A DNA stretch of 64,000 nucleotides from positions 372,001 to 436,000 of the forward strand of contig NZ_FNAT01000001.1 in assembly GCF_900102015.1 (NCBI RefSeq), read 5' to 3'. Under the pieces are notes generated by a model. That model was not told where the DNA came from. It saw only the letters and a list, made by a program, of their open reading frames with translations, and made no database searches. Made by a program: the position numbers and the translations under genes. Origin of the DNA: Limimaricola pyoseonensis (GTDB taxonomy: Bacteria > Pseudomonadota > Alphaproteobacteria > Rhodobacterales > Rhodobacteraceae). Below are positions 3,508-64,000 of the stretch, in pieces (the first letter of the stretch is position 1; each line of letters opens with the position of its first letter).

Positions 3508-6285
<2,778 letters not shown>

Positions 6286-6331
6286 GTGGGGGAACCTGCC
6301 GTCTGATGACTGCTATATATTGTTGGCGGAA

Positions 6332-6361: not shown

Positions 6362-6491
6362 CACGCGATCCCAGACACCGCTGGCAGCCAGCGAGCCTTG
6401 TGGCTAACAAACTGGGATAATTGACTTTTTACGGGGTCATGCTGGAATCGGTCGGCGGCGTCAAGAGCGCGCGCCAACAAGGAGCAGGACA

Positions 6492-12279: not shown

Positions 12280-14664
12280 ATGTCAGGCGGCAAGCGTATC
12301 GTGGGCACGGATGGTGACGACAAGCTGATCGGCACCGAGTGCAACGACGTCATCAAGGGGGGCGCGGGCAACGATCACATCGACGGTCGCGGCGGCGCCG
12401 ACCACGTCTATGGCGGTGACGGCGACGACCACATCATCGGCGATGCCCGCGAGACCATGCATGGCGGCGACGGCCGCGACACCTTCGATGTCGAGAAGGG
12501 CGGCAAGGTCTACGGCGGCGGCGATGGCGGCTCCGACGATGTCGACACGCTCGACCTGCGCGGCCTTGGCAATCTCTACGTCAAGGACGTCACGCCGGAT
12601 GACGACGGCAACGGCGTCAATGGCTGGATCCAGTTCCTCGACGAGAACATGCAGCCGATCGGCGAGCGGCTCGACTTCTACGACATCGAGAACTTCCTGA
12701 AGGACCCGCAGCCGGGCGACAACCGCGCCCCCGACGCGCAGGACGACAGCGCCCGCACCGGCGAGGAGATGGCCGTCACCATCGACGTGCTCGACAACGA
12801 CAGCGACCCCGACGGCGACCCGCTGACCGTGACCTCCGCCACCACGTCGAGCGGCTCGGTCCGGATCAACGACGACGGTTCGCTGACCTTCCAGCCCGAG
12901 CCCGGCTTCAACGGCAACGTGTTCATCGACTACGAGATCAGCGACGGCCAGGGCGGCACGGACACGGCCCGGGTCGCGGTCGAGGTGGGCTGCGGCAAGC
13001 CCGGCCTCGACGGGATCGTCGAGGGCACTGCGGCGGCCGACCTGATCGACCTCGACTACACCGGCGACCCCGAGGGCGACCGGATCGACGCGGGCGACGC
13101 GATCCTCGGCGACGACGCGCCGGATGACGACCGGGTCTACGGTTTCGAAGGCGACGACACGATCAAGGCCGGCCGCGGCGACGACCTCGTCTTCGGCGGC
13201 GAGGGCGACGACACCATCTTCGGCGAGGAGGGCGATGACCGCCTGCATGGCGGCGCTGGTGACGACACCATCACCGGCGGTCTCGGCAACGACAAGATCA
13301 GCGGCGGCGACGGCGATGACGTGATCGAGGCCGGCGACGGCGACCGCCACGCCGACACCGCGCGCTTCGACAATCCCTATCCCGGCCTCGACCGCGACCC
13401 CGACCCCTATGACGACCGCGACGTCGTCTATGGCGGCGCCGGCAACGACCGGATCAGCACCGGCGACGACCAGGACAGGATCTACGGCGGCAGCGGCAAC
13501 GACCGGATCGATGCCGGGATCGACGACGACTACGTGCATGGCGGCGATGGCGACGACTACATCGTCGGCGGCGAAGGCAACGACAGGATCGATGGCGGCG
13601 CCGGCAACGACACGATCTATGGCGGCCTCGACCCGCGCTTCCCCGACGCGCTCAACATCCGCGACGACCAGGGCGACAAGGTCACCGACAACGGCCGCGA
13701 CGTGATCCGCGGCGGTGACGGCGACGACGTCATCTTCGGCCAGGACGACGACGACCGGATCTGGGGCGACGCCGGAAACGACACCATTGATGGCGGCATC
13801 GACGACGACAAGATCTACGGCGGCACCGGCAACGACACCATCACAGGCGGGCAGGGCGCCGACAGGCTCTATGGCGGCGACGACCGCGACAGCTTCATCG
13901 GCGGCGATGCCGGCGACGAAGTCGATGGCGGCTCGGGCGGCGACGACTACGACGTGCTCGACCTGAGCGGCACCGACCAGGTTGACCGGATCGTCTACAC
14001 CTCGGACGACCGCGAGGACGGGATCGTCTACTTCAAGGACGGCTCGACCATGCGGTTCGAGGAGATCGAGAACGTCGTGCCCTGCTTCACCCCCGGCACG
14101 CTGATCGCCACCCCGCGCGGCGAACGGCTGGTCGAGGAGCTGCGCGAGGGCGACCGCATCATCACCCGTGACAACGGCATCCAGGAGATCCGCTGGCTCG
14201 GCCGCAAGGATCTGGGGCCGCGCCACATGCTCACCAGCCCGCATTTGCAGCCGGTGATGATCCGCGCCGGCGCGCTTGGCGGCGGCCTGCCCGAGCGCGA
14301 CATGATGGTGTCGCCCAACCACCGCCTGCTGCTGAGCGGAGCGCGGGCCGAGCTCTATTTCGGCGAGACCGAGGTGCTGGCCGCGGCCAAGCACCTGGTC
14401 GGCAGCCGTGGCATCCACCGGGTCGACGTCTCGCGCACCAGCTACATCCACATGCTGTTCGACCAGCACGAGGTGGTGCTGTCGAACGGCGCCTGGACCG
14501 AGAGCTTCCAGCCGGGCGACCACACGCTGAACGGCATCGGCGAAACCCAGCGCGGCGAGATCTGCGGGCTGTTTCCCGAACTGGCCACGCCCGAGGGCGT
14601 GCAGGCCTACCGCGCGGCGCGCAAGGCGCTCAAGCGCCACGAGGCGCAGCTGATGGTGGTCTGA
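12280..14664 (+). CDS. Large RTX calcium-binding protein with C-terminal Hint domain
   Basis: This is a 794-residue acidic protein without a Sec signal. RTX nonapeptides of the type GGxGxDxxx occupy about residues 10-75 and again about 250-560. Between them is a tandem-95/cadherin-like module (VTIDVLDNDSDPDGDPLTV through YEISDGQGG, about residues 165-240). The C-terminus is a Hint_2-type autoprocessing fold that starts at Cys602 (CFTPGTLIATPRGE) and includes VSPNHRLLLSG. Hint domains of this type can cleave the chain at the cysteine, which would release the RTX part. RTX proteins usually leave by type I secretion, with the C-terminal portion as signal, so a C-terminal Hint is a notable design. 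The ATG at 12280 has a strong SD 10 bases upstream. The T1SS genes at 61 kb are distant and not necessarily its exporter. Confidence 0.88.
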   Translation: MSGGKRIVGTDGDDKLIGTECNDVIKGGAGNDHIDGRGGADHVYGGDGDDHIIGDARETMHGGDGRDTFDVEKGGKVYGGGDGGSDDVDTLDLRGLGNLYVKDVTPDDDGNGVNGWIQFLDENMQPIGERLDFYDIENFLKDPQPGDNRAPDAQDDSARTGEEMAVTIDVLDNDSDPDGDPLTVTSATTSSGSVRINDDGSLTFQPEPGFNGNVFIDYEISDGQGGTDTARVAVEVGCGKPGLDGIVEGTAAADLIDLDYTGDPEGDRIDAGDAILGDDAPDDDRVYGFEGDDTIKAGRGDDLVFGGEGDDTIFGEEGDDRLHGGAGDDTITGGLGNDKISGGDGDDVIEAGDGDRHADTARFDNPYPGLDRDPDPYDDRDVVYGGAGNDRISTGDDQDRIYGGSGNDRIDAGIDDDYVHGGDGDDYIVGGEGNDRIDGGAGNDTIYGGLDPRFPDALNIRDDQGDKVTDNGRDVIRGGDGDDVIFGQDDDDRIWGDAGNDTIDGGIDDDKIYGGTGNDTITGGQGADRLYGGDDRDSFIGGDAGDEVDGGSGGDDYDVLDLSGTDQVDRIVYTSDDREDGIVYFKDGSTMRFEEIENVVPCFTPGTLIATPRGERLVEELREGDRIITRDNGIQEIRWLGRKDLGPRHMLTSPHLQPVMIRAGALGGGLPERDMMVSPNHRLLLSGARAELYFGETEVLAAAKHLVGSRGIHRVDVSRTSYIHMLFDQHEVVLSNGAWTESFQPGDHTLNGIGETQRGEICGLFPELATPEGVQAYRAARKALKRHEAQLMVV

Positions 14665-48698: not shown

Positions 48699-48819
48699 AA
48701 CCTGCCTCGGAGCGCACCGGCCATGACACCGACGCGAACCCGACGCGACACAGACGCAATACCGATCCGGCCCGATGCGCACCTCGCCGCCTCGGGCTTC
48801 GACAATTGAAGGCACTGCC

Positions 48820-50283
48820 ATGCCCACGCTCCCGATCGTCCTGATCGTCCTGGCCATCGCCGTCGCCGCCTATCTGCTTGCCCGGAGTCGCGCCCAGCGC
48901 GCCGCCGCGCGAGAGGGGCGCAGGCTGCATTCCCTCCCGAACTATTACGGCTGGACCGGCGCGCTCTACGCCGCGGGCCCGGCACTGCTGCTGCTGGCCG
49001 TGTGGCTGGTCGCCCAGCCCGTCGCCACCCGCATGGCGGTCTGGCCGGTGCTCGAGGCCGAGGCCGCGCCGAACGCGCAGCCGGCTCTGCTGATGGCCGA
49101 CGTGCAGCGGCTCGCCGCGGGGATCGACGCCGCGGTCGCGTCCGGGCGCGTTCCGGCCGCCGAGGCCGGCGACATCCCGGCCGAAGAGCTTCGCGAGCTG
49201 ATGGCCGGGCAGGGCGTGGCCCTGGGCAGCGACGTCACCCCCGCGACCCGGCAGGCGGCGCTGCGCTGGCGCGGGCTGAGCGCGGGTGGCGATCTGGCCC
49301 GCACCCTCGCCGTGATCGGCCTCGCGCTCGTGGGGGCGGCCTTCGGCGTCAGCCGCGCCAAGCCTGATTTCCGCGCCCGCAACGCGGTCGAGACGGCGAT
49401 GCGCGGCACGCTGATCGGCGCGGCGCTGCTGGCGATCCTGACCACCGTGGGCATCGTGCTGGCGCTGATCTTCAACACCATCGAGTTCTTCCGCCTCTAC
49501 CCGGCGGCCGAGTTCTTCTTCGGCTCCACATGGAGCCCGAGCTTCGGCGGCGGCTCCGAGCTGGGTATCCTGCCGCTTCTGTGGGGCACGCTCTACATCT
49601 CGATCATCGCGCTCTTGGTGGCGGTGCCGATCGGCCTCTTCGCGGCGATCTACCTCGCCGAATACGCCCACAAGAACGTCCGCAGCTGGGCCAAGCCGAT
49701 GCTCGAGATGCTCGCCGGCATCCCGACCATCGTCTACGGCCTCTTCGCGCTCCTGACCGTCGGCCCGCTGCTGGTCGACCTGTTCGGCCGCAATGGCGCG
49801 CTCGGGGTGAACTGGATGCAGGGCGGCACCGCGGTGATGACCGCCGGTCTCGTCATGGGCATCATGCTGATCCCCTTCGTCAGCTCGCTGTCGGACGACA
49901 TCATCAATGCCGTGCCGCAGAGCTTGCGTGACGGCAGCCTCGGCCTCGGCGCGACGCGTTCGGAAACGGTGCGCCAGGTGGTGCTGCCCGCGGCGCTGCC
50001 CGGCATCGTCGGCGCGGTGCTGCTGGCCGCCTCGCGCGCCATCGGCGAGACCATGATCGTGGTGCTGGGCGCAGGCGCCGCGGCGCGTCTGTCGATGAAC
50101 CCGTTCGACGCGATGACCACGGTGACCGCCAAGATCGTGAGCCAGCTCACCGGCGACGCCGATTTCTCCTCGCCCGAGGCGCTGGTCGCCTTCGCCCTCG
50201 GCATGACCCTCTTCGTGATCACCCTGGCGCTGAACGTCGTCGCGCTGTGGATCGTGCGCCGCTACAGGGAGCAGTACGAATGA
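48820..50283 (+). CDS. pstC: Phosphate ABC transporter permease PstC
   Basis: This 487-residue membrane protein is longer than E. coli PstC (319) because of an N-terminal extension of two membrane helices and a soluble segment (about residues 85-165) containing AEAAPNAQPALLMADVQRLAAG by position. The permease core has six helices and the coupling loop SLRDGSLGLGATRSETVRQVVLPAALPG near residue 370. AIGETMIVVLGAG follows. Extended PstC proteins of this kind are usual in Rhodobacteraceae. The ATG at 48820 is preferred over one at 48775. The stop overlaps pstA by ATGA. Confidence 0.93.
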   Translation: MPTLPIVLIVLAIAVAAYLLARSRAQRAAAREGRRLHSLPNYYGWTGALYAAGPALLLLAVWLVAQPVATRMAVWPVLEAEAAPNAQPALLMADVQRLAAGIDAAVASGRVPAAEAGDIPAEELRELMAGQGVALGSDVTPATRQAALRWRGLSAGGDLARTLAVIGLALVGAAFGVSRAKPDFRARNAVETAMRGTLIGAALLAILTTVGIVLALIFNTIEFFRLYPAAEFFFGSTWSPSFGGGSELGILPLLWGTLYISIIALLVAVPIGLFAAIYLAEYAHKNVRSWAKPMLEMLAGIPTIVYGLFALLTVGPLLVDLFGRNGALGVNWMQGGTAVMTAGLVMGIMLIPFVSSLSDDIINAVPQSLRDGSLGLGATRSETVRQVVLPAALPGIVGAVLLAASRAIGETMIVVLGAGAAARLSMNPFDAMTTVTAKIVSQLTGDADFSSPEALVAFALGMTLFVITLALNVVALWIVRRYREQYE

Positions 50284-51638
50284 CCGACATCACCGACAGC
50301 GCGGCGCAGCCCGAGCGCCGCGAAACCGGCCGCTCCATCCTCGAGGCCGACGCCCGCACCAAGAAACGCAACCGCGCCGAGACCCGGTTCAAGGCCTACG
50401 GCATCGCCGCGCTCGGCGTGGGCGGGCTGTTCCTGATCGCGCTGCTCTGGGCGATCCTGTCGAACGGCCTCACCGCCTTCACACAGACCTACGTTCAGCT
50501 CGACGTGCCGCTGATCGAGGAGAAGCTCGACAAGGACGGCGACCGCGACCCGGCGAAGATCGCCAAGGTCTCGACCTTCGGCTACAACCCGCTGATCGAG
50601 CAGGCGCTGGTCGAACTGGTCGAACGCGAGGGGCTGGAGACCGAGCTGGAGCCGAAGGCGCTGACCAAGATGCTCTCGGGCGCCGCCGCCGCCGACATCC
50701 GCGATCGCGTGCTCGCCAATCCCGAGCTGATCGGCCAGACCGTGAGCTTCGAGGTGCTCGCCTCCTCGCGGGTCGACGGCTACCTCAAGGGCCGCGTCAG
50801 CCGCGAGAGCCTGGCGCGCGACAAGAACCTCGACGCCGAGCATCTCGACCTGATCGACGCGCTGCAGCAGACCGGCGCGGTGGAAAAGCGCTTCAACTGG
50901 GCCTTCATCACCGGCGCCGACGCCTCCGATTCCCGTCCCGAGCAGGCCGGGATCGGCGTCGCCATGCTGGGCTCGCTCTTCATGATGCTGGTGGTGCTGG
51001 TGCTGTCGCTGCCGATCGGCGTCGCCGCCTCGATCTATCTCGAGGAGTTCGCGCCGCAGAACCGGCTGACCGACCTGATCGAGGTGAACATCTCCAACCT
51101 CGCGGCCGTGCCCTCGATCGTCTTCGGCATCCTCGGCCTCGCGGTGTTCATCCAGTTCATGCACCTGCCGCAATCGGCGCCGCTGGTCGGTGGCCTCGTG
51201 CTGACGCTGATGACGCTGCCCACCATCATCATCTCGACCCGCGCCGCGCTGAAGGCGGTGCCGCCCTCGATCCGCGACGCGGCGCTCGGCGTGGGCGCCT
51301 CGAAGATGCAGTCGGTGATGCACCACGTGCTGCCGCTGGCGATGCCCGGCATCCTCACCGGCACCATCCTCGGCCTCGCGCAGGCGCTTGGCGAGACCGC
51401 GCCGCTGCTCCTGATCGGCATGGTGGGCTATATTGCCACCAACTACCCCGACGGCGTGGCCGAGGGCTTCCTCGCGCCGAACTCGGCGATGCCCGCGCAG
51501 ATCTACGAATGGGCCAAGCGGGCCGACCCGGCCTTCTACGAGCGCGCCTGGGGCGGGATCATCGTGCTGCTGGTGTTCCTGCTGGCGATGAACCTGCTGG
51601 CGATCCTGCTGCGCCGCCGCTTCGAGCGCCGCTGGTAA
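50280..51638 (+). CDS. pstA: Phosphate ABC transporter permease PstA
   Basis: This 452-residue permease partner of PstC is also extended relative to E. coli. It has a membrane helix near residue 45 and then an extracytoplasmic region of about 180 residues ([21 protein letters not shown] onward by position). The C-terminal core includes [18 protein letters not shown] near residue 245, [40 protein letters not shown] near residue 335 (coupling loop) and [12 protein letters not shown]. It begins inside the pstC stop, and pstB starts 19 bases after it. Confidence 0.93.
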
Positions 51639-51657
51639 GCGGAAAGGACAGACCGAC

Positions 51658-52452
51658 ATGAACGACATGCGAACCATGGACAACGCCGTGAACCACGACA
51701 CCAAGATCACCGCGCGCGACGTGCACGTGCATTACGGCACCACCCACGCCATCAAGGGCGTGGACGTCGACATCGCCGACCGCACCGTCACCGCCTTCAT
51801 CGGCCCGTCGGGCTGCGGCAAGTCGACCTTCCTGCGCTGCCTGAACCGGATGAACGACACCATCCCCGGCGCGCTGGTCACCGGCGAGATCAAGATCGAC
51901 GAGGCCGACATCTACGACCCGCGGGTCGACCCGGTGCAGCTGCGCGCCAAGGTCGGCATGGTGTTCCAGAAGCCGAACCCCTTCCCGAAGTCGATCTACG
52001 ACAACGTCGCCTACGGCCCGAAGATTCACGGCATGGCCAGGAACAAGGCCGATCTCGACGAGATCGTCGAGAAGGCGTTGCGCCGCGGCGCGATCTGGGA
52101 CGAGGTGAAGGACCGCCTGCACGCGCCCGGCACCGGCCTCTCGGGCGGCCAGCAGCAGCGGCTCTGCATCGCCCGCGCGGTGGCGACCGAGCCCGAGATC
52201 CTCTTGATGGACGAGCCCTGCTCGGCGCTCGACCCGATCGCCACGGCGCAGGTCGAGGAGCTGATCGACGAGCTGAAGCAGAACTTCTCGGTGGTGATCG
52301 TGACCCACTCGATGCAGCAGGCCGCGCGCGTCAGCCAGCGCACCGCCTTCTTCCATCTCGGCCATCTCGTCGAGTTCGGCGAGACCGGCAAGATTTTCAC
52401 CAACCCCGAGGACAGCCGCACCGAAAGCTACATTTCGGGCCGCATCGGGTAA
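51658..52452 (+). CDS. pstB: Phosphate ABC transporter ATPase PstB
   Basis: This 264-residue ATPase energises phosphate uptake. Walker A is GPSGCGKST near residue 47. [14 protein letters not shown] and [20 protein letters not shown] are PstB-specific. The signature is [14 protein letters not shown] near residue 162 and Walker B is [12 protein letters not shown] near residue 182. [10 protein letters not shown] also fits. AAAGGA precedes the ATG. It completes PstSCAB and lies 11 bases before phoU. Confidence 0.97.
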
Positions 52453-52463
52453 GGAGCAGGGAC

Positions 52464-53177
52464 ATGCAGGAAAAGCAGCACATCGCCTCGGCCTTCGACC
52501 GCGACCTCGAATCGATCCAGGCGCTGATCCTGAAGATGGGCGGCATGGTCGAGGCCGCGATCCTCGACGGCGCGCAGAGCCTCGCCGACCGCGACGTCGA
52601 GGCGGCCGAGAAGGTCCGCCGCGGCGACAAGGCGATCGACGCGCTCGAGGAGCAGCTCAACGAGGAGGCCGCCCGTGTCATCGCGATCCGCGCGCCCGTC
52701 AGCCGCGACCTCAGGGTGATCCTGTCGGTGCTGCGGCTCGCCGCCAGCCTCGAGCGGATCGGCGACTACGCCAAGAACATGGCCAAGCGCACCAGCGTGC
52801 TGGCCGAGCTGCACCCGATCGAGGGCTCGGACGCGGCGCTCAAGCGGATGGCGCGCGAGGTGCAGAACATGCTGCGCGACACGCTCGACGCCTTCGTCAA
52901 CCGCGACCCCGGGCTCGCGCACGAGGTGCTGCTGCGCGACCAGGAGGTCGACCAGATGTACAACGCGCTGTTCCGCGAGTTCCTGACCCACATGATGGAG
53001 GACCCGCGCGCCATCACCGCCTGCATGCACCTGCACTTCATCGCCAAGAACATCGAGCGGATGGGTGATCTGGTGACCAACATGGCCGAGCAGGTGATCT
53101 ACCTCGCCACCGGCAAGATGCCCGACGAGGACCGTCCGAAGGGCGACACCACCGCCTACGTCGCCCAGCCGGAGTGA
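52464..53177 (+). CDS. phoU: Phosphate-specific transport accessory protein PhoU
   Basis: This 237-residue all-helical protein has two PhoU repeats, each with the metal-binding ExxxD pattern (VRRGDKAIDALEEQLNEEAARV near residue 52, and VLLRDQEVDQMYNALFREFLTHM near residue 155). ERIGDYAKNMAKR (about residue 95) and ERMGDLVTNMAEQVIYLATG (about residue 196) are classic signatures. PhoU links the Pst transporter to PhoR to silence the regulon when phosphate is plentiful. It lies between pstB and phoB with gaps of 11 and 4 bases. Confidence 0.97.
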   Translation: MQEKQHIASAFDRDLESIQALILKMGGMVEAAILDGAQSLADRDVEAAEKVRRGDKAIDALEEQLNEEAARVIAIRAPVSRDLRVILSVLRLAASLERIGDYAKNMAKRTSVLAELHPIEGSDAALKRMAREVQNMLRDTLDAFVNRDPGLAHEVLLRDQEVDQMYNALFREFLTHMMEDPRAITACMHLHFIAKNIERMGDLVTNMAEQVIYLATGKMPDEDRPKGDTTAYVAQPE

Positions 53178-53181
53178 GACC

Positions 53182-53871
53182 ATGGCCGAGCTGCAGCCGC
53201 ATGTGCTGATCGTCGAGGACGAGGCCGCGCAGCGCGCGGTGCTGGCCTACAACCTCGAATCCGAGGGCTTCCGGATCTCCGAGGCCGAGGACGGCGACAC
53301 GGCGCTGTTGCTGGTGGCCGAGGAGGCGCCCGATCTCGTGGTGCTCGACTGGATGCTGCCGGGCGTGTCGGGGATCGAGATCTGCCGGCGGCTGAAGACC
53401 CGGCCCGAGACCCGGGACGTGCCGGTGATCATGCTCTCGGCCCGCTCCGAGGAGGTCGACCGGGTGCGCGGGCTCGAGACCGGGGCGGACGACTACGTGG
53501 TCAAGCCCTACTCGGTGACCGAGCTGATGGCGCGGGTGAAGGGGCAGCTGCGCCGCACCCGCCCGGCCAGCGTCGGCCAGACGCTGCGCTTCGAGGGTAT
53601 CGAGCTCGACGCCGAGACCCACCGGGTGCGGCGCGACGGCCATGACGTGAAGCTCGGGCCCACCGAGTTCCGGCTGCTCGCCACCTTCCTCGAGAAGCCC
53701 GGCCGGGTCTGGAGCCGCGAGCAGCTGCTCGACCGGGTCTGGGGCCGCGAGGTCTATGTCGACACCCGCACCGTCGATGTCCATATCGGCCGGCTCCGCA
53801 AGGCGCTGCGCGCCCATGGCGGCGCCGATCCGCTGCGCACCGTGCGCGGCGCCGGCTACGCGCTGGGATAG
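53182..53871 (+). CDS. phoB: Phosphate regulon response regulator PhoB
   Basis: This is a 229-residue OmpR/PhoB-type response regulator. The receiver has the acid pair Glu12/Asp13, the phospho-accepting Asp56 in LVVLDWMLPG and the conserved Lys in VVKPYSVTEL. The C-terminal winged helix has LGPTEFRLLATFLEKPGRVWSREQLLDRVWG and TVDVHIGRLRKAL. It binds Pho boxes such as the one at 47506-47538, so it should activate its own operon. It ends 3 bases from the stop of the convergent 174-residue gene. Confidence 0.96.
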   Translation: MAELQPHVLIVEDEAAQRAVLAYNLESEGFRISEAEDGDTALLLVAEEAPDLVVLDWMLPGVSGIEICRRLKTRPETRDVPVIMLSARSEEVDRVRGLETGADDYVVKPYSVTELMARVKGQLRRTRPASVGQTLRFEGIELDAETHRVRRDGHDVKLGPTEFRLLATFLEKPGRVWSREQLLDRVWGREVYVDTRTVDVHIGRLRKALRAHGGADPLRTVRGAGYALG

Positions 53872-53874
53872 GGG

Positions 53875-54399
53875 TCAGACCGGGTAGCCCTCGTCGCCGA
53901 TCAGGGACCAGATGTCGCGGTTGAGCAGTTGCAACGCCGCGATCGTCCCATTGATCTCGGCCAGCGCCGCGTCGTCGATCGCGGCGCTCTGGCCCATCTT
54001 CACCTTGGTCTTGCGATCCGCGATCCGCATGGTGATCGTGCGCGCCGCGCCGCCTTCTGCGTCGAATGCGTAGAGCGCGTGGTTGTAGCGGTTGCGCAGC
54101 GCCTGATGCCGCCGGATGCGACCGGTGATGTCGAGCAACCGGCTCAGCGTCTCCGGCGCGATCTCCTGCGACTTGGCCAGCCGCTCCACGAGATCGAGCC
54201 GCGCCCGGGCGGTGTTCAGCGTGAGGAAGATGATCGTCGCGTTCTGCGTGCCGGTGCCGGCGAGTCCCGCGATGAGATGGATCAGCAGGCTCTCGGTGTT
54301 GGTCCAGCAATAGTTCATCCGTCCGACCAGCAGCAGCAGCCGGTCGAACTCGCCCAGCTCCTGCACCGGGTCGGCCGGATGCGGCTGCGGCCCGGTCAT
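53875..54399 (-). CDS. Unrecognised 174-residue protein with HEPN-like motif
   Basis: I do not recognise the family by name. The protein is mostly helical. It contains FDRLLLLVGRMNYCWTNTESLLIHLIAG, LTLNTARARLDLVERLAKS, and then RIRRHQALRNRYNHALYAFD near residue 110-125. RNRYNH fits the R-x4-6-H signature of HEPN domains, many of which are ribonucleases or nucleotide-binding helpers, and the polar residue after Arg is the preferred Asn. The C-terminal half (INGTIAALQLLNRDIWSLI) is another helix pair. The start is the ATG at 54399, which overlaps the stop of the LuxR-type gene (ATGA), so the two proteins are made together. Confidence 0.55.
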   Translation of the reverse strand: MTGPQPHPADPVQELGEFDRLLLLVGRMNYCWTNTESLLIHLIAGLAGTGTQNATIIFLTLNTARARLDLVERLAKSQEIAPETLSRLLDITGRIRRHQALRNRYNHALYAFDAEGGAARTITMRIADRKTKVKMGQSAAIDDAALAEINGTIAALQLLNRDIWSLIGDEGYPV

Positions 54400-55160
54400 G
54401 GTGGATCCGCCTGGCCCGCCTCGACCTGCGCCAGATACCAGATCGCGGCCCCGGTGCGGTTCGAGACGCCGAGCTTGCCGATCAGGTGATGGATATGCAG
54501 CTTGACGGTGTGCTCGGACAGGCCGAGCTCGGCCGCGACGATCTTGTTCTGCTTGCCCTCGGCCAGCAGGGTCAGCACCTGCCATTCCCGCGGGGTCAGG
54601 CTGCGACCGAGTTGCTGGGACTCCTCGTCCACCGGCGGGGCGGGGCCGCCGGCCGCGGTGGTGTCCGGGGCCGCCCCCTGCGACGCCAGGAACTCGCGCA
54701 TCAGCCTTTCGGGATAGAACACCTCGCCGCAGAGCAGCAGGCGCATGACCGATGTCAGGACCTCGATCTGCACGTTGAGGGGAAACAGGCCGATCCGCGG
54801 CAGCGTCGCGCTGCCGGTCAGCCCCGCCAGCAGGTCGCGCGCGGGCGGCGCCGAGCTGTAGGCGAGCGCCAGCATGTCGGCCCGGCTCTGGGCGGCCAGC
54901 TCCTTGAGCCCGGACATGCCCTTGAGCTGCCGCTCGTCGATCACGGCGAGCTTGCAGCTGCCCTGACCCGGCCCGGTCATCCGCAAAGCGGCGAGATCGG
55001 GCAGGCGCAGGAATGTCAGACTTCGGAATTCCGCCGAGAAGACATCCAGCATTCCACCGGGAAAGCAGAACTCGTCGCCAATGAAATAAACCGAGGCATC
55101 TTGGCAGATCGGCAGATTTTCGATTTGCCCATTTGCGGGGGGGCGGGCGCTTAGAGTCAC
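54396..55160 (-). CDS. LuxR-type regulator with receiver-like N-terminal domain
   Basis: This regulator is 254 residues if the GTG at 55160 is used; an ATG at 55280 would add 40 residues, including a hydrophobic run that looks like translated leader. The C-terminal GerE helix-turn-helix is clear: LTPREWQVLTLLAEGKQN, then AAELGLSEHTVKLHIHHLIGKLGV. The N-terminal part (ASVYFIGDEFCFPGGMLDVF, KLAVIDERQL) reads like a degenerate receiver domain of the CsgD/VpsT kind, which control biofilm matrix genes. It is transcribed away from the large secreted repeat protein and is the most likely regulator of that locus. It is translationally coupled to the HEPN-like gene. Confidence 0.8.
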   Translation of the reverse strand: MTLSARPPANGQIENLPICQDASVYFIGDEFCFPGGMLDVFSAEFRSLTFLRLPDLAALRMTGPGQGSCKLAVIDERQLKGMSGLKELAAQSRADMLALAYSSAPPARDLLAGLTGSATLPRIGLFPLNVQIEVLTSVMRLLLCGEVFYPERLMREFLASQGAAPDTTAAGGPAPPVDEESQQLGRSLTPREWQVLTLLAEGKQNKIVAAELGLSEHTVKLHIHHLIGKLGVSNRTGAAIWYLAQVEAGQADPP

Positions 55161-55280
55161 GATAACACCTGAAACACAAAAACAAAGGAGCGCGAAAAGA
55201 ACCTGTACGAGTCGATAGTACGGTCTCGACCCGATGGGTGACATAGACCGAAAGGTGAGAGCCGTGAAGCGGGTCGGCAA

Positions 55281-55800
55281 GGGTGTGTACGGTCCTTGAA
55301 GGCAATGACACTGCGTTGCCCGCCAGGAAACAAAGGATGAATAATAGGTTAATGTCGCTTCATTGCGCTCAATTCGCCGATCAGGCGTCCCCCCGGCCTG
55401 ATTTCATGTTTCAGCGGGTCACAGAGTGTTGAAGAGAAGCGGCGCGAAGAGGTTCTACCCAAGCGTGACGGGCGCTCCGGCGCGGGCCCCGGTTGGGTGT
55501 AATCCGATTTTCCGGGCTGAATCCTCCGGCCAAGCGCGCAGACTTGGCTGACCCCGAAGTCCGAGCCACTCGCCACCTTTCGGACCACGCGTTTATCCGA
55601 CGATCCGGAATGCGAATTGGCTCTCTCGGGCAGTTGTTTGCAGGTGGAGGAGAGGTCGTAATCCATGGATGATCCCCGGGCTTTCCGTCCGGGGAGGTGC
55701 CGTTCGGCACCGAATTTTTCCCAAATCGATGCAATCGCATGATCACCGCGTTTGAGATGAATGGCGGTGCGGCGATGGCGCTCGTTCAGGAGATCGAGAC
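55281..55800. other. Long leader region before the repeat-protein gene
   Basis: No convincing gene lies in these 520 bases; the frames that stay open have no family features. The first 100 bases are comparatively AT-rich (TAATAGGTTAAT near 55345) and could hold divergent promoters. Two hairpins stand close together at 55674-55694 and 55696-55711, and the second is followed by a T-run. The ribosome site AGGAG (55789-55793) precedes the ATG at 55801. This is a candidate structured 5' leader. Confidence 0.45.
55696..55719 (+). terminator. Terminator-like hairpin upstream of the repeat-protein gene
   Basis: A 7-base-pair perfect stem (55696-55702 with 55705-55711) around TT is followed by GAATTTTT. 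It lies 82 bases before the ATG at 55801, directly after another stem (CCCCGG 55674-55679 with CCGGGG 55689-55694). It may act as an attenuator. Confidence 0.45.
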
Positions 55801-58761
55801 ATGGCAACGCGCAACAACAACATCATTGGCTGGGGAGACGGCGAAAGCGGCCCCGTCAACGAGATCAACGGCAACCAGGAACAGACCATCATCAACGGCG
55901 AAGCCGTCGAGAACGGTGAGGTCGAGGTGGCCGAGGAGCTGGTCGCGAACGGCGATGCCGACGGCTACGCGGACCAGAACCAGAACCAGAACCAAAATCA
56001 GAACCAAAACCAGAACCAAAATCAGAACCAGAGCCAGAGCCAGGCGCAAAGCGACAGCGGCGCGGGCAGCGACAGCGCGAGCGCGGCCGAAGCCGCGGCG
56101 CTGGCCGACAGCATCAGCACAAGCGACAGCGCCAGCTCGAGTGACAGCTCGAGCGCCAGCGATGTCGATGTGGATGTCGCGGTGCAGGTCGATGTCGGCG
56201 TGGCGCTCGAAGGCGCGAATGACGACGACGTCGCCGATTTCGACCTCGACAATTCGACCACCGGCGACATCGCCGTGGCCGGCGGCGATCTGCATTACGA
56301 TCCCGGCGACGACTTCACCATGAGCGACATCATCACCGAGTCGCTCAACGGCGAGGGCAATGACGCCGGCTTCGTGAACGTGCTCAAGAACGTGCTCGAT
56401 GACAATGACACGCTCGACAGCGCCGAGGTCACCAACGAGTCGAGCTTCAACCAGAACGGCACCGCGACGGGCGGCACCGCCACGGCCGATGACGGCATTT
56501 CGGTCGACACCAATGGCGGCACCGGCGGCAGCAATGCCGAAAGCCTGGGCGGCAACGCCGATGGCGGCACGGCCAATGGCGGCACGGCCAACGCGACGGC
56601 CAACAGCGCCAATGGCGGCAACGCCGACGCGCAGGGCGGCAACAGCGGCGAGTCCGGCACGGCGAACGCCACGGGCCATCAGGTCGATGCCGGCGACGTC
56701 GACTCGAACGCCAACAGCACCGGCGGCAACAGCGGCGAGAACACCGCCAACAACAACGCCGACAGCAACGCCAACAACACGACCGACGCCAATGGCAACG
56801 GCGGCAACGGCGGCAATTCGAACTCGACCAACAACAGCAACGCCAACAGCGACTCCGACGTCAACGACAACACGACCGCCGGGAACTCCGGCAATGCCGA
56901 CGCGGCCGCGACGCTGAACAGCGACAACGACGCGACCAGCGACAACCAGTCCGATGGCGGCGACAGCGGCAACGCGAACTCCGATGCCGACGCCAATGCC
57001 GATGCCGACTCGAACTCGGATGCAGATGCCACAGGCGGCAATTCCGGCATGGTGGACGGCGATACCGCGGTCGATACGGCGGCCGCCAATGACAGCAACG
57101 TCGAAGCCGCCGGCGACAGGGGCGGTGACATCGCGGCCAGCAACGACATCGACGGCAATGCCACCTCCGATGGCGACGGCAACGGCAATGGCGGCGAGAG
57201 CGGCGATGCCAATGGCGCTGGCGACGCGGCGGCCGAAGGCGCGGCCGAGGCGGCCGTCACCAACGAGGCCGGCTATGGCGGCGAGAACACCTCGACCGCG
57301 ACCGGCGATGGCGACGGCACCGGCGATGGCGACGGCACCGGCGATGGCGACGGCACCGGCGATGGCGACGGCACCGGCGATGGCGACGGCACCGGCGATG
57401 GTGACGGCACCGGCGATGGTGACGGCACTGGCGATGGTGACGGTACCGCCGACGCGGACGCCACGGCCGATGGCGATGGCGGCGATGCCAATGCCGACTC
57501 GCAATCGACCGTGACCGCCACTGCCAGCCCGGGCGCCGTGACCGGCACCTCGACCGCGACCGGCGGCACGGGCGGCATGGGCGGCAACAATCCCGCCACC
57601 GCCGACTCTGACGGCACGGGCACCGGCACCGGAACCGGAACCGGCGAAGGCACCGGAACGGGTGAAGGCACCGGAACCGGGACCGGCACCGGCACGGGTG
57701 AAGGCACCGGTGAAGGCACGGGTGAAGGCACCGGCACCGGCACCGGCACGGGCACCGGCATGGCCGAAGGCATGGCCGGCGACGGCGGTGCGGCCAACGC
57801 GACCGGCGGGCCGAACAGCAACAGCTCGGCCGCCACGGGCACCGGCACCGGCACCTCCGGCATGACCGGCGCCGGAACCGGCATGACCGACAACGAGGCC
57901 GATAACAGCGGCACCGGTTCCAACGAGGCCACCACCGGCGAAGGCGGTGACGGCGACGCGGCGAACGACACCGACGCGATGGCGACCGGAACGGGCAGCA
58001 CGGACGGCGCCTCCGGGGCCGGCGGCGCGGCCGATGCCGCCAACGACGCCGACGCCACCACGACGAACGCCTCCGACTCGGCGGCGACCTCGGGTGACGG
58101 CGGGGCCGGCAACGGGACGTCGGGTGCCGACGCGTCGAGCGCCGACGCCAATGCCGCCGACGCGGCCAGCGGCTACGGCGGCGCGGCGAGCTCCGACACC
58201 GACACCACCACCGACAGCATGGCCGACGGCTATGCCGACGGCGACGGTGGTTACGGCGGCATGTCGGATATCGCGATCGAGGCCCTGGCCGAGTCGATGG
58301 CCGAGGCGGAGAGCGCGCAGACCAGCGGTGACGGTGGTGCCTCCACGGCCACGGCCGATGCCACGAGCAACGGCGCGGCCATGGGCGACGTCATGGCGAC
58401 CAGTGGCGAGACCGGCGACACGATGACCACGGCCACCGGCGGCATGGGTGGCGCGGCCAGTGTCGACAACACCACCGGCGGCGCAGGCACCAATGGCGAC
58501 GTCATGGGAGGCGCCGGCGGCGCTGCCATGAACGGCGACGGCGGGGCCGGCGGCAATGCCGGGACCTGGGGCTCCTCGAACGGTGACGACTCCTACATCA
58601 CCGGCGAGAGCTACGCCTCCGCGGCCGCGGCCGTGAACCAGGAGGCCTTCACGCAGGAGATCGTGATGGGGGCCAACGTGCTGGGCAACACCGTCGACAT
58701 GAACGTCGTCGGCGGCTCGTTCAGCTCGAACTACGTGGGTGAGGACGGCGACGGTATGTGA
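55801..58761 (+). CDS. Giant acidic Q/N/G/D/T-rich low-complexity protein, probably type I-secreted
   Basis: This 986-residue protein has no Sec signal, no cysteine, and only one Lys (196) and two Arg (4 and 440). Asp, Gly, Ala, Asn, Ser and Thr dominate. Residues 59-76 are nine Gln-Asn pairs, followed by SQSQAQ. A Ser/Asp-rich part and a more ordered part (about 125-210, with [20 protein letters not shown]) come next. Then come long N/G/T/A repeats, eight exact GDGDGT units (502-549), a (GT)n/GEGT array (about 606-660), and a folded-looking C-terminus ([20 protein letters not shown]). The bulk acidity and T1SS genes downstream suggest export by a C-terminal signal and calcium-dependent assembly outside. 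The Q/N tract recalls amyloid or matrix proteins. Function is not proven, and I know no named family. Confidence 0.8.
55975..56028 (+). repeat. Nine tandem Gln-Asn codon pairs
   Basis: Nine CAR-AAY dipeptide units (QN)9 run without interruption, then QS-QS-QA-QS to 56052. CAG/CAA and AAC/AAT alternate between copies, so selection seems to keep the peptide rather than the DNA. Confidence 0.95.
57304..57447 (+). repeat. Eight 18-base tandem repeats (GDGDGT units)
   Basis: Eight consecutive copies of an 18-base unit reading GGCGATGGCGACGGCACC encode GDGDGT. The first five copies are identical; the last three have one to three GGT/GTA-type changes. In-frame unit gain or loss would alter protein length. 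Confidence 0.95.
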
Positions 58762-58775
58762 TCGCCGGACAGGAG

Positions 58776-58805
58776 GGGCGGGGGCCGCACGGCCCCCGCC
58801 CATTT
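58776..58805 (+). terminator. Strong hairpin after the repeat-protein gene
   Basis: A 12-base-pair G+C stem (58776-58787 with 58790-58801) with a CA loop lies 14 bases after the stop and is followed by ATTTC. It probably ends or attenuates most transcripts of the abundant secreted protein, leaving less for the secretion genes. Confidence 0.65.
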
Positions 58806-58892
58806 CGGGTCCGCCTGCCCTGAGCAGGCATCGGCCCGCCGGCATGGTCCGGGCGACCGTGCCGCGCGCATTTCGGGAGCGGCGTTTCGATC

Positions 58893-61205
58893 ATGTCCAT
58901 GGACCGTACGACCGATACCATCGCTCACTTCATCGGCCTCTTCGGACAACTCGAGGAGGCCGCGCGTCTGAGGGAAGGGTTCGAAGGCTTCGAGCCGTAC
59001 CCGGACGCCGACGCATCGCCCGATGCGCTGCGTTTCACGCCGCTTCAGGTATCGCAGAGCTATCGGCTCGAGGATCTCTCGCCGGTGGTCGACTACCACC
59101 CCCTGCCACCGAACAATTACGACATCGTTGCGATCCCGTCGCAGCCGCGGCTGCCGGAGGCGCTGGCAAAGCCCTGGCCGGGCATCTCGGAAGAGCCGCC
59201 GCTGGTGAAGGAGATCCTGCTCGCGGCATCCCTCAGAACCGAGCTTCTGCCGCTCGAGATGCCGCCGCCCTCGGCGATGCACGGGCTGCACGTGCTGACC
59301 AACAGGCTCGAGGATGCCGATGCCTTCGGGATCGGGGCGGCGGGGGTCGCGGCGCTGCACGCGGCCGCCGAGGCGCAGGGCGAGCTTCTGGTGCAGCTGG
59401 CCGGGCAGGCGCAGATGCTTGCGGCCATCCCGCCATTGGGCCTGCCGGGCGATCTGCCGACCGACTGGGCCGGACTAGCGGAGGAATTGCAGGCCCGCGC
59501 CGAGGCGGTGGCCGCCGCCATCCCCGGCGCGGCGCTGCATCTGGGTGCCGCGGCCGGCGGCGTGCATGTCGACGGCGCGCCCGCCGACGAGATGCCGGAC
59601 TGGCTGACGCTGTGGCCGGCGATGCTGCGCGACGGCAAGGATGATGCCGATACCGACCCGGAGGACCCGCCCGGCCACGATCAAGACGCCGACATGGCGC
59701 GCGCGCTCGATGCCGTGGCCGAGGCCGCGGGCGACGCGGCGCCGGCCGGGGCAGGGCCCGAGGGGCAGGGCTTCGTGACGGGCGGAAACAGGCTGGTCAA
59801 CGAAGTGGTGGTCACCAGCGACTGGCTCGACGCGTCCTACTTCGTGGTCGGCGGCGCGGCGCGGCATCTCGACGCCGTCTCGCAGCTCAACATGATGTCT
59901 GACCGCGATGTCGGGCTGGGCGAGGGCGGAGAGGCCTCCCGCGCCGTCAACGCCGCTCGCATCGTCACCGAATCCCGGCCCGCCACGCCGCCGCCCGACG
60001 CCGATGACGCGCCGGCGCATAGCGGCGGGCCGTCGCATTGGGCGCTGGCGCGGCTCAGCGGGGATCTCGTCCAGATCAACGACGTGCGCCAGGTGAACCT
60101 CGTCAACGACACCGACCACGCGGCGCTGCGCTTCACCGCCGGCGACAGCCGGATCGTGCTGGGCGAGAACAGCGCCAGCAACCTCGCGCTCATGGACGCG
60201 TTCGGCTGGCGCTTCGACCTCGTCTTCGTCGGCGGCGACATGGTGGACATGACCATGCTGCGGCAGATCAACCTGCTGCTCGACGACGACGAGGCGGTGC
60301 CGTCGCTTGCCGAGGCGGAAGGCCCGGTGCAGCCGGTCGATCTCGCCTCGCAGCAGGCCGCCACCACCGCCGAAGGGGTCGCCGTCTCCGACGCGCCGCT
60401 CTCCGGCCTCGACCCGGTGCTGCCAAACGACGAGCGGAGCGAGCCCCTTGCGGAAGAGGTGGAGCCAGCGGGCGGGCAGGAGATCGAACCGACGCAAGCC
60501 AAGGTCACGCAGGCCAAGGTCACGCAGGCCCCGGCCGATGACATCGCTGCACCTGCCGCAGCGCCGGCGCCAGCGCCGCAGTCGCCGCCGGCGGCCGTGC
60601 AGGGCGGCGACAACCTTCTCTACAACGGCGCGACGCTCAAGACGGTCGGACGGGATGTCGAGGCCGAGCTGCCGGAGATGCTGCGGGACGTGCACGACAC
60701 GCTCGCCGAGAGGGCGGAGGCCTTGCCCGAGGCCTTGCTCGGTCTCGACATCTTCGACGGGATCGAGCTTCTCAAGGTGCTGCTGATCGAGGGCGACTTC
60801 ATCACCCTGAACCGGTTCGACCAGTTCAACATGCTGGCCGATTCCGACCGGATCACGGGGCTGGCCGAGGCGCTGGAGGCCGTCGCCGAGGCCGAGGTCG
60901 TGACCGGCTCGAACCTTCTGGCCAACCACGCCACGCTGACCGATCTCGGCGTCGACAGCCAGATCGCGGCCGGGCAGGGCGTCTATGACGACCTCCTGCT
61001 CTACCAGGCCGAGCTGCTCGACACCGATGCCGCCCCGACCGGGGTCGGCCTGACCGATCTGGCCGGCGAGGCGGTGGCCTTCCTGGCCGACGGCATGATC
61101 GACCCGGCCGCCGAACCCCTCGCCGAGGCCCAGGCCGAGATCGCGGCGGGGATCGCCGCCGCCTCCGCCAGCCCGACTGACCTGTTGCAGACCATGCTGA
61201 GCTGA
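58893..61205 (+). CDS. Type I secretion-associated protein with four Q-x-N-x3-D-x-D repeats
   Basis: This 770-residue acidic protein has no signal peptide or membrane helix. An N-terminal part (about 1-250) is rich in Leu, Pro and Glu. Then four copies of a motif Q-x-N-[ML]-x2-D-x-D appear at Gln331, Gln400, Gln458 and Gln644, three of them following a G-x-V or G-D-[FLM] hydrophobic strand. N-x-L-x-N motifs (N299, N574, N674) stand before or between them. A proline/alanine linker (about 545-570) divides the repeats. I recall similar proteins being labelled 'type I secretion protein' next to T1SS genes. It could be a secreted partner of the 986-residue protein, a nucleator, or an intracellular chaperone. 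The ATG 58893 and the nearby 58899 are both possible. The next gene starts 11 bases after its stop. Confidence 0.7.
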   Translation: MSMDRTTDTIAHFIGLFGQLEEAARLREGFEGFEPYPDADASPDALRFTPLQVSQSYRLEDLSPVVDYHPLPPNNYDIVAIPSQPRLPEALAKPWPGISEEPPLVKEILLAASLRTELLPLEMPPPSAMHGLHVLTNRLEDADAFGIGAAGVAALHAAAEAQGELLVQLAGQAQMLAAIPPLGLPGDLPTDWAGLAEELQARAEAVAAAIPGAALHLGAAAGGVHVDGAPADEMPDWLTLWPAMLRDGKDDADTDPEDPPGHDQDADMARALDAVAEAAGDAAPAGAGPEGQGFVTGGNRLVNEVVVTSDWLDASYFVVGGAARHLDAVSQLNMMSDRDVGLGEGGEASRAVNAARIVTESRPATPPPDADDAPAHSGGPSHWALARLSGDLVQINDVRQVNLVNDTDHAALRFTAGDSRIVLGENSASNLALMDAFGWRFDLVFVGGDMVDMTMLRQINLLLDDDEAVPSLAEAEGPVQPVDLASQQAATTAEGVAVSDAPLSGLDPVLPNDERSEPLAEEVEPAGGQEIEPTQAKVTQAKVTQAPADDIAAPAAAPAPAPQSPPAAVQGGDNLLYNGATLKTVGRDVEAELPEMLRDVHDTLAERAEALPEALLGLDIFDGIELLKVLLIEGDFITLNRFDQFNMLADSDRITGLAEALEAVAEAEVVTGSNLLANHATLTDLGVDSQIAAGQGVYDDLLLYQAELLDTDAAPTGVGLTDLAGEAVAFLADGMIDPAAEPLAEAQAEIAAGIAAASASPTDLLQTMLS

Positions 61206-61216
61206 GAAAGGCCGAC

Positions 61217-63358
61217 ATGTCGCCGCATAACTCCGCCGCCACATTGCGTCTCGTTCCCGCGCACAGGGTCGTGCCGCCCCGATTGGTGCGCCTGCCGCGC
61301 TTCCTGACCGGCCCGTCGCCGATGGCGCGATGGCTGGCCCGTCACCGCATCGCGGCCGAGCGGCCCCGGCCGCCCGAGCCGCCGGGCGAGGCGCCGGCGG
61401 GCACCGCGCCGCAGGGGCGCATCACGCCCGCCAGCCCCTTGCCGGGCCCGGTGATCGAGGCCGATCGCGGCCCGATCCGCCGGCCGCCGACGCCGCCCGA
61501 GGAGCGGCGCCGCGAACCCGGCGGCGGCGGTGGCGGGGCAGGCGGCGCGGCGCCGCCACGCTTCCACAAGCCGGTCGGGCCGGAGGATTTCGGCCGGGCG
61601 CTGCGGCTCGGGGTGCAGGCGGTGCGGCGCAATCTCGGGCTGGTGATGGTGCTGACCTGCGCCACAAACCTGCTGATCCTCGCCATCCCGATCTACCTGT
61701 TCCAGATCTCGGACCGGGTGCTGACCAGCCGATCGGTCGACACGCTGGTGATGCTGACCATCGTGATCGCGGCGGCGGTGGTGCTGCAGGCGGTGTTCGA
61801 CGCGGTCCGGCGCTTCGTGCTGATGCGCACCGCCGTCGAGGTCGCCGCCCGGCTCGGCGCCCCGATCCTGAGCGCGGCCTCGGCCGCCGCGCTGCACGGC
61901 ACGGGGCGCGAATACCAGACGCTGGGCGATCTGCAGCAGCTGCGCGGCTTCATCGTCTCGGGCACGCTCCTGTCCTTCCTCGACGTGCCCTTCGCGCCGC
62001 TGTTCATCCTCGCGATCTACTTCGTGCACCCGCATCTGGGGACCATCGTGGTCGGCACCTCGCTGGCGCTTCTGGTCATCACGCTGATCAACCAGAAGCT
62101 CACCGCGCGGCCCTTCGCCGAGGCCAATGCCGCGCAGAGCCGGGCCAACCTGCACCTCGATTCCATGTCGCGCAACAGCCAGATCATCAACGCGCTCGCG
62201 ATGATCCCCGAGGCAGTGCGGATCTGGGGCCGCGACACCGCCACCTCGCTCACCGCCCAGGTCCACGCGCAGGACCGCAACATCGCGGCCTCGGCCGCCT
62301 CGCGCGCGGTGCGGCTGCTCACCCAGGTCGCGATGCTGGGCTGGGGCGCCTATCTGGCGATCTTGGGCGAGATCACCGGCGGCATGGTGATCGCCGCCTC
62401 GATCATCGCGGGCCGGGCACTGGCGCCGATCGAGGGCGCGATCGAGGGCTGGAGCGGTTACGCGCAGGCCCGCGCCGCCTATGGCCGTATCGCCGGACTG
62501 CTGACCGGCTCGAAGCTGCAGTTCGAGCGGCTGAACCTGCCCAACCCCGAGGGCCGGCTCGATGTCGAGCGGCTGCTCTACGTGCCGGGCGGCACCAAGC
62601 AGGTGGTGCTGAACGGCGTCAGCTTCGCGCTCACGCCCGGCGAAAGCCTCGCGATCATCGGCAATTCGGGGGCCGGCAAGACCACGCTCGGCAAGATGCT
62701 GGTGGGATCGATCCTGCCGACCTCGGGCAATGTCCGGCTCGACCTGATGGACCTGCGCAACTGGGATCCGCGGCAGCTGGGCGAGAATATCGGCTACCTG
62801 CCGCAGGACGTGCAGCTCTTTCCCGGCAGCATCAAGGACAACATCGGCCGGATGCGGCTGGACGCGACGGATGCGCAGATCTACGCGGCCGCGCGGCTCG
62901 CCGATGTGCACGAGATGATCGCCAACCTGCCGCAGGGCTACGAGACGGTGGTGGCCGCCGACGGCGCGCCGCTCTCGGGCGGGCAGAAGCAGCGCATCGC
63001 CCTGGCGCGGGCCTTCTTCGGAGAGCCGCGCTTCGTGGTGCTCGACGAGCCGAACTCCAACCTCGACAGCGCCGGTGACAAGGCGCTGGCGCAGGCGCTC
63101 AGGCACGCCAAGGAAAACCGGATCACCGTGGTCGTGGTGACCCAGAAACCGACGCTGCTCACCGTGGTCGACAAGATCATGCTGCTTGCCGATGGCAGCA
63201 TCCAGATGTTCGGCGAACGCATGCAGGTGCTGCAGCGGCTGGCGGGTGACAAGGCGCCGCGACCGGCGCCGCGCGCACCGGGACCGAGCCAGGTGCCGGG
63301 GCAGGGACCGGGTCAGGATCCGGGCAAGAATCCGGGGCAGGGAGGGCCGAAATCATGA
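61217..63358 (+). CDS. Type I secretion ABC transporter (permease/ATPase, PrtD-like)
   Basis: This 713-residue fused transporter powers type I export. A 115-residue Pro/Arg/Gly-rich N-terminal extension precedes the membrane domain (about 130-400; LVMVLTCATNLLILAIPIYLFQISDRVLTS by position), which resembles PrtD rather than HlyB since no C39-like domain is present. The ATPase has Walker A GNSGAGKTT near residue 490, signature LSGGQKQRIALARA near 590, Walker B FVVLDEPNSNLD near 612, and an H-loop position occupied by VVTQKPTLL, with Gln in place of the usual His. A Pro/Gly/Gln-rich tail follows. An ATGA overlap links it to the HlyD gene. The substrate is probably encoded in the two genes upstream. 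Confidence 0.92.
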   Translation: MSPHNSAATLRLVPAHRVVPPRLVRLPRFLTGPSPMARWLARHRIAAERPRPPEPPGEAPAGTAPQGRITPASPLPGPVIEADRGPIRRPPTPPEERRREPGGGGGGAGGAAPPRFHKPVGPEDFGRALRLGVQAVRRNLGLVMVLTCATNLLILAIPIYLFQISDRVLTSRSVDTLVMLTIVIAAAVVLQAVFDAVRRFVLMRTAVEVAARLGAPILSAASAAALHGTGREYQTLGDLQQLRGFIVSGTLLSFLDVPFAPLFILAIYFVHPHLGTIVVGTSLALLVITLINQKLTARPFAEANAAQSRANLHLDSMSRNSQIINALAMIPEAVRIWGRDTATSLTAQVHAQDRNIAASAASRAVRLLTQVAMLGWGAYLAILGEITGGMVIAASIIAGRALAPIEGAIEGWSGYAQARAAYGRIAGLLTGSKLQFERLNLPNPEGRLDVERLLYVPGGTKQVVLNGVSFALTPGESLAIIGNSGAGKTTLGKMLVGSILPTSGNVRLDLMDLRNWDPRQLGENIGYLPQDVQLFPGSIKDNIGRMRLDATDAQIYAAARLADVHEMIANLPQGYETVVAADGAPLSGGQKQRIALARAFFGEPRFVVLDEPNSNLDSAGDKALAQALRHAKENRITVVVVTQKPTLLTVVDKIMLLADGSIQMFGERMQVLQRLAGDKAPRPAPRAPGPSQVPGQGPGQDPGKNPGQGGPKS

Positions 63359-64000
63359 GCCTGCAGCAGGTCGAAAGCGGTGAATGGTTCGCCGAGGTGC
63401 CGCGCTCGGTGCGCGGCCACGCGATCTTCGGGATCGTGCTGCTGATCCTCACCTTCGGCGGCTTCGGGCTCTGGGCGTTCCAGGCACCGCTGGCCGCCGC
63501 CGTGATCGCGCCGGGCAGCTTCGTCGCCACCGGCCAGAACAAGATCGTCCAGCATCTCGAGGGCGGGATCATCGAGGAGATCCTCGTCGACGAGGGCGAC
63601 CGGGTCGAGGCCGGGCAGCTTCTGCTGCGGCTCGACGGCACGCAGGCGGCGGCGGCCGAGCGCGAGCTGCAGCTGCGCCAATGGCGGCTCGAGGCGACCG
63701 AGGCGCGTCTGCTGGCCGAGGAACAGGGGCTGGAGGCGATCCGCTTCCCGGCGCATCTGGAGGCCGCGCGCGGCGATTTCGCCGTGGCGGGCATCCTCGA
63801 CGGGCAGGAGCTGTCCTTCCGGGTGTCGCGCGGCGCGCATGAGAACGATCTCGCGCTGCTCGAACGCAACATCGAGGCGCTGCGCATCCGCGCCGGCGGC
63901 TACGACACCCAGCTCGAGACGCATCGCCGTCAGCACGCGCTGCTGGTCGAGGAACATGCCGACAAGGAAGCGCTGTTCTCGCGCGGTCTGCTGCGCCGGC
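63355..64000 (+). CDS. HlyD-family type I secretion adaptor, cut by window edge
   Basis: This is the membrane fusion protein that joins the ABC transporter to an outer-membrane channel. The visible 215 residues show one inner-membrane helix (about 24-46), then the biotinyl-lipoyl half domain GQNKIVQHLEGGIIEEILVDEGDRVEAGQLLLRLD and the start of the coiled-coil hairpin rich in Glu, Arg and Leu. It begins with an ATGA overlap in the ABC gene. The stop lies beyond 64000. A TolC-type partner is not in the window. Confidence 0.93.
   Translation, partial: MSLQQVESGEWFAEVPRSVRGHAIFGIVLLILTFGGFGLWAFQAPLAAAVIAPGSFVATGQNKIVQHLEGGIIEEILVDEGDRVEAGQLLLRLDGTQAAAAERELQLRQWRLEATEARLLAEEQGLEAIRFPAHLEAARGDFAVAGILDGQELSFRVSRGAHENDLALLERNIEALRIRAGGYDTQLETHRRQHALLVEEHADKEALFSRGLLRR

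Follow-up and report, generated by a model that had tools for sequence, protein, structure and literature searches.

A long acidic protein with three basic residues, encoded with a type I exporter in Limimaricola pyoseonensis

The stretch of DNA analysed here (the window; 64,000 nucleotides of Limimaricola pyoseonensis, contig NZ_FNAT01000001.1, positions 372,001 to 436,000) carries a six-gene module encoding a long acidic protein, A, that is almost free of Lys and Arg, a second acidic protein, B, and a PrtD/HlyD exporter. A is probably an exported, largely unfolded matrix or surface protein that leaves the cell together with B through PrtD/HlyD, under VpsT/CsgD-like and RNA control. The property conserved in A and B is the lack of locally cationic stretches, rather than the absence of Lys and Arg. 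The features, with positions in the window, are:

53875-54399, minus strand: conserved protein of 174 aa (the small protein); its start overlaps the end of the regulator gene, and aligned relatives are 41-57% identical
54396-55244, minus strand: LuxR-type regulator, divergent from A, with a GerE domain and an N-terminal part similar to the receiver-like domain of VpsT
55725-55788, plus strand: conserved RNA leader element of 64 nt (covariance model, covariation)
55801-58761, plus strand: gene A, acidic, Lys/Arg-depleted, Cys-free low-complexity protein of 986 aa (ORF, composition, about 80 homologous loci)
55966-56031, plus strand: Q/N-rich N-terminal tract of A, (QN)n, residues 56-77; Q/N- or Q/G-rich tracts lie at the same position in most homologues
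56206-56520, plus strand: conserved core of A, residues 136-240 (alignment, AlphaFold2), with DDD..DxDL, LNGxGND and LDDND, the [Q]-x5-D-x-D motif
57301-57480, plus strand: species-specific 18-bp tandem array in A, 10 copies, encoding (TGDGDG)n
58543-58758, plus strand: C-terminus of A (residues 915-986), conserved in the family and carrying G-A-N-x3-N; putative signal region for type I secretion
58893-61205, plus strand: gene B, Cys-free acidic protein of 770 aa with imperfect beta repeats; four strict copies each of Q-x5-D-x-D and G-x-N-x3-N
61217-63358, plus strand: PrtD-type type I secretion ABC permease/ATPase (TIGR01842, 697 bits, cut-off 510)
63355-64000, plus strand, running past the window to 64689 (G000:C11:435355-436689): HlyD-family periplasmic adaptor of 444 aa, with homologues in about 80 loci

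Gene A and its module

Gene A runs from ATG to TGA on the forward strand, and the initial annotation, which gave its position, its 986 residues, three Lys/Arg and no Cys, was exact on each count. The basic residues are K196, R4 and R440, and the acidic ones number 168 (126 Asp and 42 Glu), which gives a net charge of -165; there are 210 Gly and 103 Asn. The probability of three or fewer Lys/Arg in 986 residues is about 6e-17 at a rate of 4.7%, that of the acidic neighbour B, and about 7e-36 at a rate of 9%. The gene is genuine, as shown by its codon-position GC (0.63, 0.59 and 0.87 at positions 1, 2 and 3), an AGGAG resembling a Shine-Dalgarno site just upstream of the start codon and the homologues in about 80 loci. 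A frameshift or assembly artefact was rejected because the reading frame is kept end to end across these homologues. An antisense ORF of 1019 aa (55786-58845) has a GC3 of 0.63, the mirror codon-position GC pattern and no family match, and was regarded as mechanical.

The family set of A comprises 88 sequences of about 280-1491 aa, with a composition of 0.85% K, 0.43% R, 0.008% C, 24.5% G, 12.7% D and 9.1% N. The median for Lys/Arg is 1.0%, and Arg is rarer than Lys. The depletion had been called extreme, and by the chance probabilities it is; it is not unique, however, but a family tendency, and two of the 88 sequences have even less Lys/Arg than the protein of the window. Homologues that depart from this composition do occur in part: the Aminobacter homologue L047 has 35 K and 5 R in 622 aa, and that of a congener (L114) 47 K and 2 R in 1108 aa. 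The near-absence of Lys and Arg is therefore not in itself a conserved property. Cys is absent in nearly all A members and most B members, and no recognisable N-terminal signal was found in either protein.

On sequence grounds the exporter is of a known kind, and no convincing known family was found for A, B or the small protein. A resembles RTX proteins and adhesins in being acidic, rich in Asp and Gly and encoded beside a type I exporter, but a motif scan gave no match to GGxGxD or to the nonapeptide GGxGxDxUx, as had been noted initially for the former, and the Pfam family HemolysinCabind was not matched in any of 65 members. A true RTX protein is encoded elsewhere in the window (12241-14664, plus strand, 807 aa); it has 11 HemolysinCabind stretches, a Hint_2 domain, a cadherin-like/Big_9 domain and an ordinary Lys/Arg content of 8.8%. 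The long acidic low-complexity stretch without basic residues recalls the serine-aspartate repeat stalks of the staphylococcal Sdr/Clf proteins, which use another exporter; the weak NCBIfam hits to these (21 bits against a cut-off of 999) are driven by composition and were rejected as an identity for A. A Pfam TrAA12 match was isolated, weak and confined to one member.

The module consists of the small protein and the LuxR regulator, divergently oriented, followed by A, B, the ABC protein and HlyD; the gap between B and the ABC gene is 11 bp and the ABC and HlyD genes overlap by 4. Relatives were found by searching plasmids for B with tblastn and by scanning the genomes of 84,980 species; about 70-80 homologous loci resulted, from marine and soil Alphaproteobacteria in the Rhodobacterales (Ruegeria, Sulfitobacter, Litoreibacter, Tritonibacter and others) and the Hyphomicrobiales (Sinorhizobium/Ensifer, Mesorhizobium, Devosia, Phyllobacterium and Aminobacter). 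The gene order is identical in nearly all loci with sufficient flanking DNA, in both orders and also in the congeners. No regulator was recognised at the usual place in L001, L033, L035, L042, L067, L077, L084 and L094 (some Sinorhizobium, Mesorhizobium and Aquamicrobium-type loci), and in L037 and L048 the LuxR match lies farther out. In whole-genome searches 20 of 199 genomes sampled from the family of the window had B, as did 7 of 8 from its genus and 2 of 385 sampled across the class. The module is thus widespread but patchy, and the genome of the window has a single copy.

The association of a PrtD-subfamily ABC protein and an HlyD adaptor, in one operon with candidate substrates that are Cys-poor, acidic and without an N-terminal signal, is that of the known PrtD/HlyD systems (TIGR01842). 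The module differs from these in that A and B fall outside the RTX, protease, lipase and heme-binding families, and in having two conserved substrates, a divergent regulator pair and an RNA leader. A TolC-type channel is not encoded inside the operon, and a NodT/TolC-like ORF lies near 9 of the about 80 loci. TolC is often encoded away from its type I secretion operon.

In a minority of loci, some of them in roseobacters and others in the separate Devosia group, the module is flanked by genes for UDP-glucuronate decarboxylase, GalE or glycosyltransferases; in most loci the flanking genes are not polysaccharide genes. In the window a pstC-pstA-pstB-phoU-phoB-like phosphate operon, read from the letters alone (48775-53871, plus strand), ends just before the convergent small-protein and LuxR genes. 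In Sinorhizobium glycinis (L042, 1-4716) a repetitive ORF of 1571 aa adjoins the module, with ALSTDQVAALKTTQ repeats, 0 Arg, 33 Lys and 0 Cys.

Gene B and the motifs it shares with A

The repeats of B are built on Q-x5-D-x-D and G-x-N-x3-N, in which Gln, Asn and Asp are invariant. By hhalign B is clearly homologous within itself (98.6%, 1e-15, against 0.8% for the reversed control), and its model contains strands some 20 residues long with pLDDT above 90. No Pfam match was found in 65 members and no sequence match in the PDB, and NCBIfam gave one weak match in one member. Foldseek comparison of the model with the PDB and BFVD gave nothing significant; the top two PDB neighbours, FapC amyloids with E 0.29 and 2.3 and a probability of 0.01, are non-significant and serve as a lead only.

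Both motifs are also found in A, in one copy each. The C-terminus of A aligns in register with a half-unit of B (hhalign 62% against 0.8% reversed), and the core of A aligns with the first Q-strand of B (88% against 28% reversed). As judged by these profile alignments, the likeness of the ends of A to the B repeats is moderate.

In another reading B is a functional amyloid-type fibre subunit of the Fap kind, A is its nucleator, cap or solubility partner, and the operon makes a fibre exported by type I secretion. Imperfect repeats with conserved Asn, Gln and Gly and variable linkers are common to B and FapC/FapB, and the Fap repeats likewise rest on conserved Asn/Gln (PMC12392863); the FapC structural neighbours, the internal homology and strands of B and the single motif copies in A would suit the same reading. 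Against it, the FapC matches are of the low significance given above and have no counterpart by sequence profile, Asp residues inside the repeats would hinder cross-beta stacking if no cation were paired with them, and the module has another exporter, no FapF-type channel and none of the other Fap operon genes. A FapA match in one B member was isolated and weak. On balance an amyloid of this kind appears unlikely.

Disorder, drift and local charge

With 65 homologues in the alignment, AlphaFold2 gave A a mean pLDDT of 42.5, with 824 of the 986 residues below 50; residues at about 141-226 are the sole part near 70-77. Nearly every 50-aa block lies on the disordered side of the charge-hydropathy plot. 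These profiles, together with the net charge and the adjoining type I exporter, bear out the earlier description of A as a highly negative, largely disordered polymer of the secreted type. Polyglycine-II packing was rejected, as Gly shows no consistent i+3 periodicity.

The constant parts of A in the alignment are the Q/N- or Q/G-rich N-terminus, the core and the last 75 residues, of which the C-terminus is the best conserved. G-[AG]-N-x3-N occurs within the last 60 residues of all 88 proteins, and Q-x5-D-x-D is strict in 72 of them, its Gln being replaced in the window protein. The middle varies freely, and the Devosia homologues and L120 are without most of the Gly-rich part. In L120, a divergent homologue, Asp/Glu is down to 10% and there is still almost no Lys/Arg. 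Two loci, L028 and L119, carry two copies of A each.

Any 20-residue stretch with a net charge above +2 is reported to block export by the ABC exporter TliDEF of P. fluorescens, with Arg blocking more than Lys and adjacent Asp neutralising the effect (PMC9223453). This criterion was applied unchanged, as the largest net charge over any 20-aa stretch, and the first 40 residues of A were excluded because start codons were called mechanically. The maximum was +2 or lower in 84 of 88 A proteins (78 of 88 with the first 40 residues included) and in 90 of 98 B hits. All 318 other proteins of the module (94 ABC, 82 HlyD, 67 LuxR and 75 small-protein hits) reached +3 or more. The value for A of the window is 0, and in L047, the most Lys-rich A with its 35 K, it is only +1, because every Lys is surrounded by Glu/Asp. 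Free as they mostly are of locally cationic stretches, both A and B fit as cargo of the exporter. The RTX protein of the window reaches +4, so not every presumed type I substrate follows the rule. The fit is correlative, and the composition of A is best read as an export constraint and not as a basis for calcium folding. If true, this would be evidence from naturally occurring proteins for the proposal that ABC exporters of proteins do not accept cationic stretches.

The initial annotation had expected A to be disordered without calcium and able to bind cations or shield the cell, with any calcium binding resting on Asp arrays other than the RTX repeats. That calcium-dependent folding is the purpose of A is not supported. 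In its fuller form the idea is that A is a calcium- or cation-binding polymer whose Asp arrays fold or gel on external calcium, as an S-layer-like or shielding coat. The charge, the Asp-Gly arrays and the exporter alongside would agree with this, and S-layer proteins exported by type I systems and bearing RTX regions depend on calcium (PMC13274458). However, A has neither an RTX signature nor an Asp array that is conserved: D-x-[DN]-x-[DNS]-G gives isolated matches only, the TGDGDG x10 arrays are confined to the species of the window and absent from its congeners, and L120 keeps its low Lys/Arg at 10% Asp/Glu. The calcium polymer is thus improbable. Equally improbable is a composition without a function of its own, in which slippage has expanded GC-rich low-complexity repeats and the conserved ends alone are of consequence. 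The 10-copy 18-bp array, the range in length and the loss of the middle in Devosia and L120 would agree with it, but Lys/Arg is low despite quite different low-complexity sequences among the homologues, and drift in a genome of 69% GC would be expected to add Arg codons.

Leader RNA, regulators and a proposed scheme

The leader element of A has an inner helix (55744-55749/55764-55769, CACCGC/GCGGTG) that encloses a 14-nt loop, GTTTGAGATGAATG, and an outer helix of variable register. Across the family both arms change together and the loop is conserved, roughly as TTTGnAGATGAnTG. The covariance model R1 gave 71 hits and located the element in about 69-70 of the 87 loci to which it was applied, every hit lying in a leader of A. 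In the inner helix 89% of cells are paired and all six pairs have two-sided changes. Covariation of the whole structure was 0.528 in the alignment fitted to the model, compared with 0.246 +/- 0.017 when shuffled and at most 0.204 with slid partners; for the inner helix on the unfitted alignment A11 it was 0.617 compared with 0.270 +/- 0.028. The outer helix scored 13.2 compared with 9.4 +/- 0.4 when the 3' flanks were swapped between loci.

In the genome of the window the leader of A is the only significant hit of the model, and in the 199 family genomes 14 had a hit, 13 of which also have B. The hit in G696 and a second one in G702 were judged to be chance, one being distant from the module genes and the other within an RTX coding region. 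No Rfam match was found in the leader. The covarying stems and the conserved loop point to an RNA and make a DNA site that binds a protein the less likely reading; if this is right, an uncharacterised, strongly covarying RNA regulator is attached to a surface-protein gene. A terminator-like hairpin at 55696 occurs in only 4 of 73 leaders and was rejected as a family feature. The A genes of L028 form a tandem pair (4510-6397), and a separate copy of the leader element precedes each of them.

A GerE domain was found in 22 of 22 LuxR regulators. The regulator profile spans residues 51-214 of VpsT, which reaches furthest N-terminally among the PDB matches, and Pfam Response_reg gave no match. The regulator shares with VpsT/CsgD the LuxR/GerE domain and may share the receiver-like N-terminal part; it differs in having no canonical Response_reg match and in being paired with a protein of 163-174 aa. 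This small protein has invariant WTNTESL and LNTxRAR motifs, is nearly always coupled to LuxR and has no convincing Pfam match. It is possibly a new partner of the regulator, perhaps of the leader RNA.

In the proposed scheme the VpsT/CsgD-like LuxR protein and its small partner would control transcription of the operon, and the structured leader would adjust the synthesis of A post-transcriptionally. The PrtD/HlyD exporter would then carry out both A and B. The near-absence of Lys and Arg is best read as an extreme answer to the intolerance of the exporter for locally cationic stretches, in a low-complexity chain for which basic residues may serve no further purpose. Once exported, A may attach to B, the probable scaffold, through its conserved C-terminus and core, which are like single half-units of the B repeats. 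The long acidic part rich in Gly and Asx would then form a hydrated brush. A role in a matrix is suggested by the sugar-nucleotide and glycosyltransferase neighbours in a minority of loci and by the VpsT-like regulator.

More tentatively, the module may represent an undescribed alphaproteobacterial system of secreted matrix, with B as fibre or scaffold and A as a disordered brush docking by its C-terminal half-unit, both built on a shared beta-repeat outside the RTX type and exported by a dedicated type I system. Its regulation would rest on a VpsT-like protein, a small partner not described before and an equally new leader RNA gating the synthesis of A. If right, this would add a class of surface proteins that leave the cell by type I secretion without belonging to the RTX type. 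No published description of the module was found in the literature covered, which left out most subscription journals. The locus occurs widely among marine roseobacters and rhizobia, where the substrate genes carry the public annotation 'hypothetical protein' or, wrongly, 'type I secretion protein ATPase'. The latter label is found on the B homologue of L002 (8089-10197), in which the real ATPase is the next gene.
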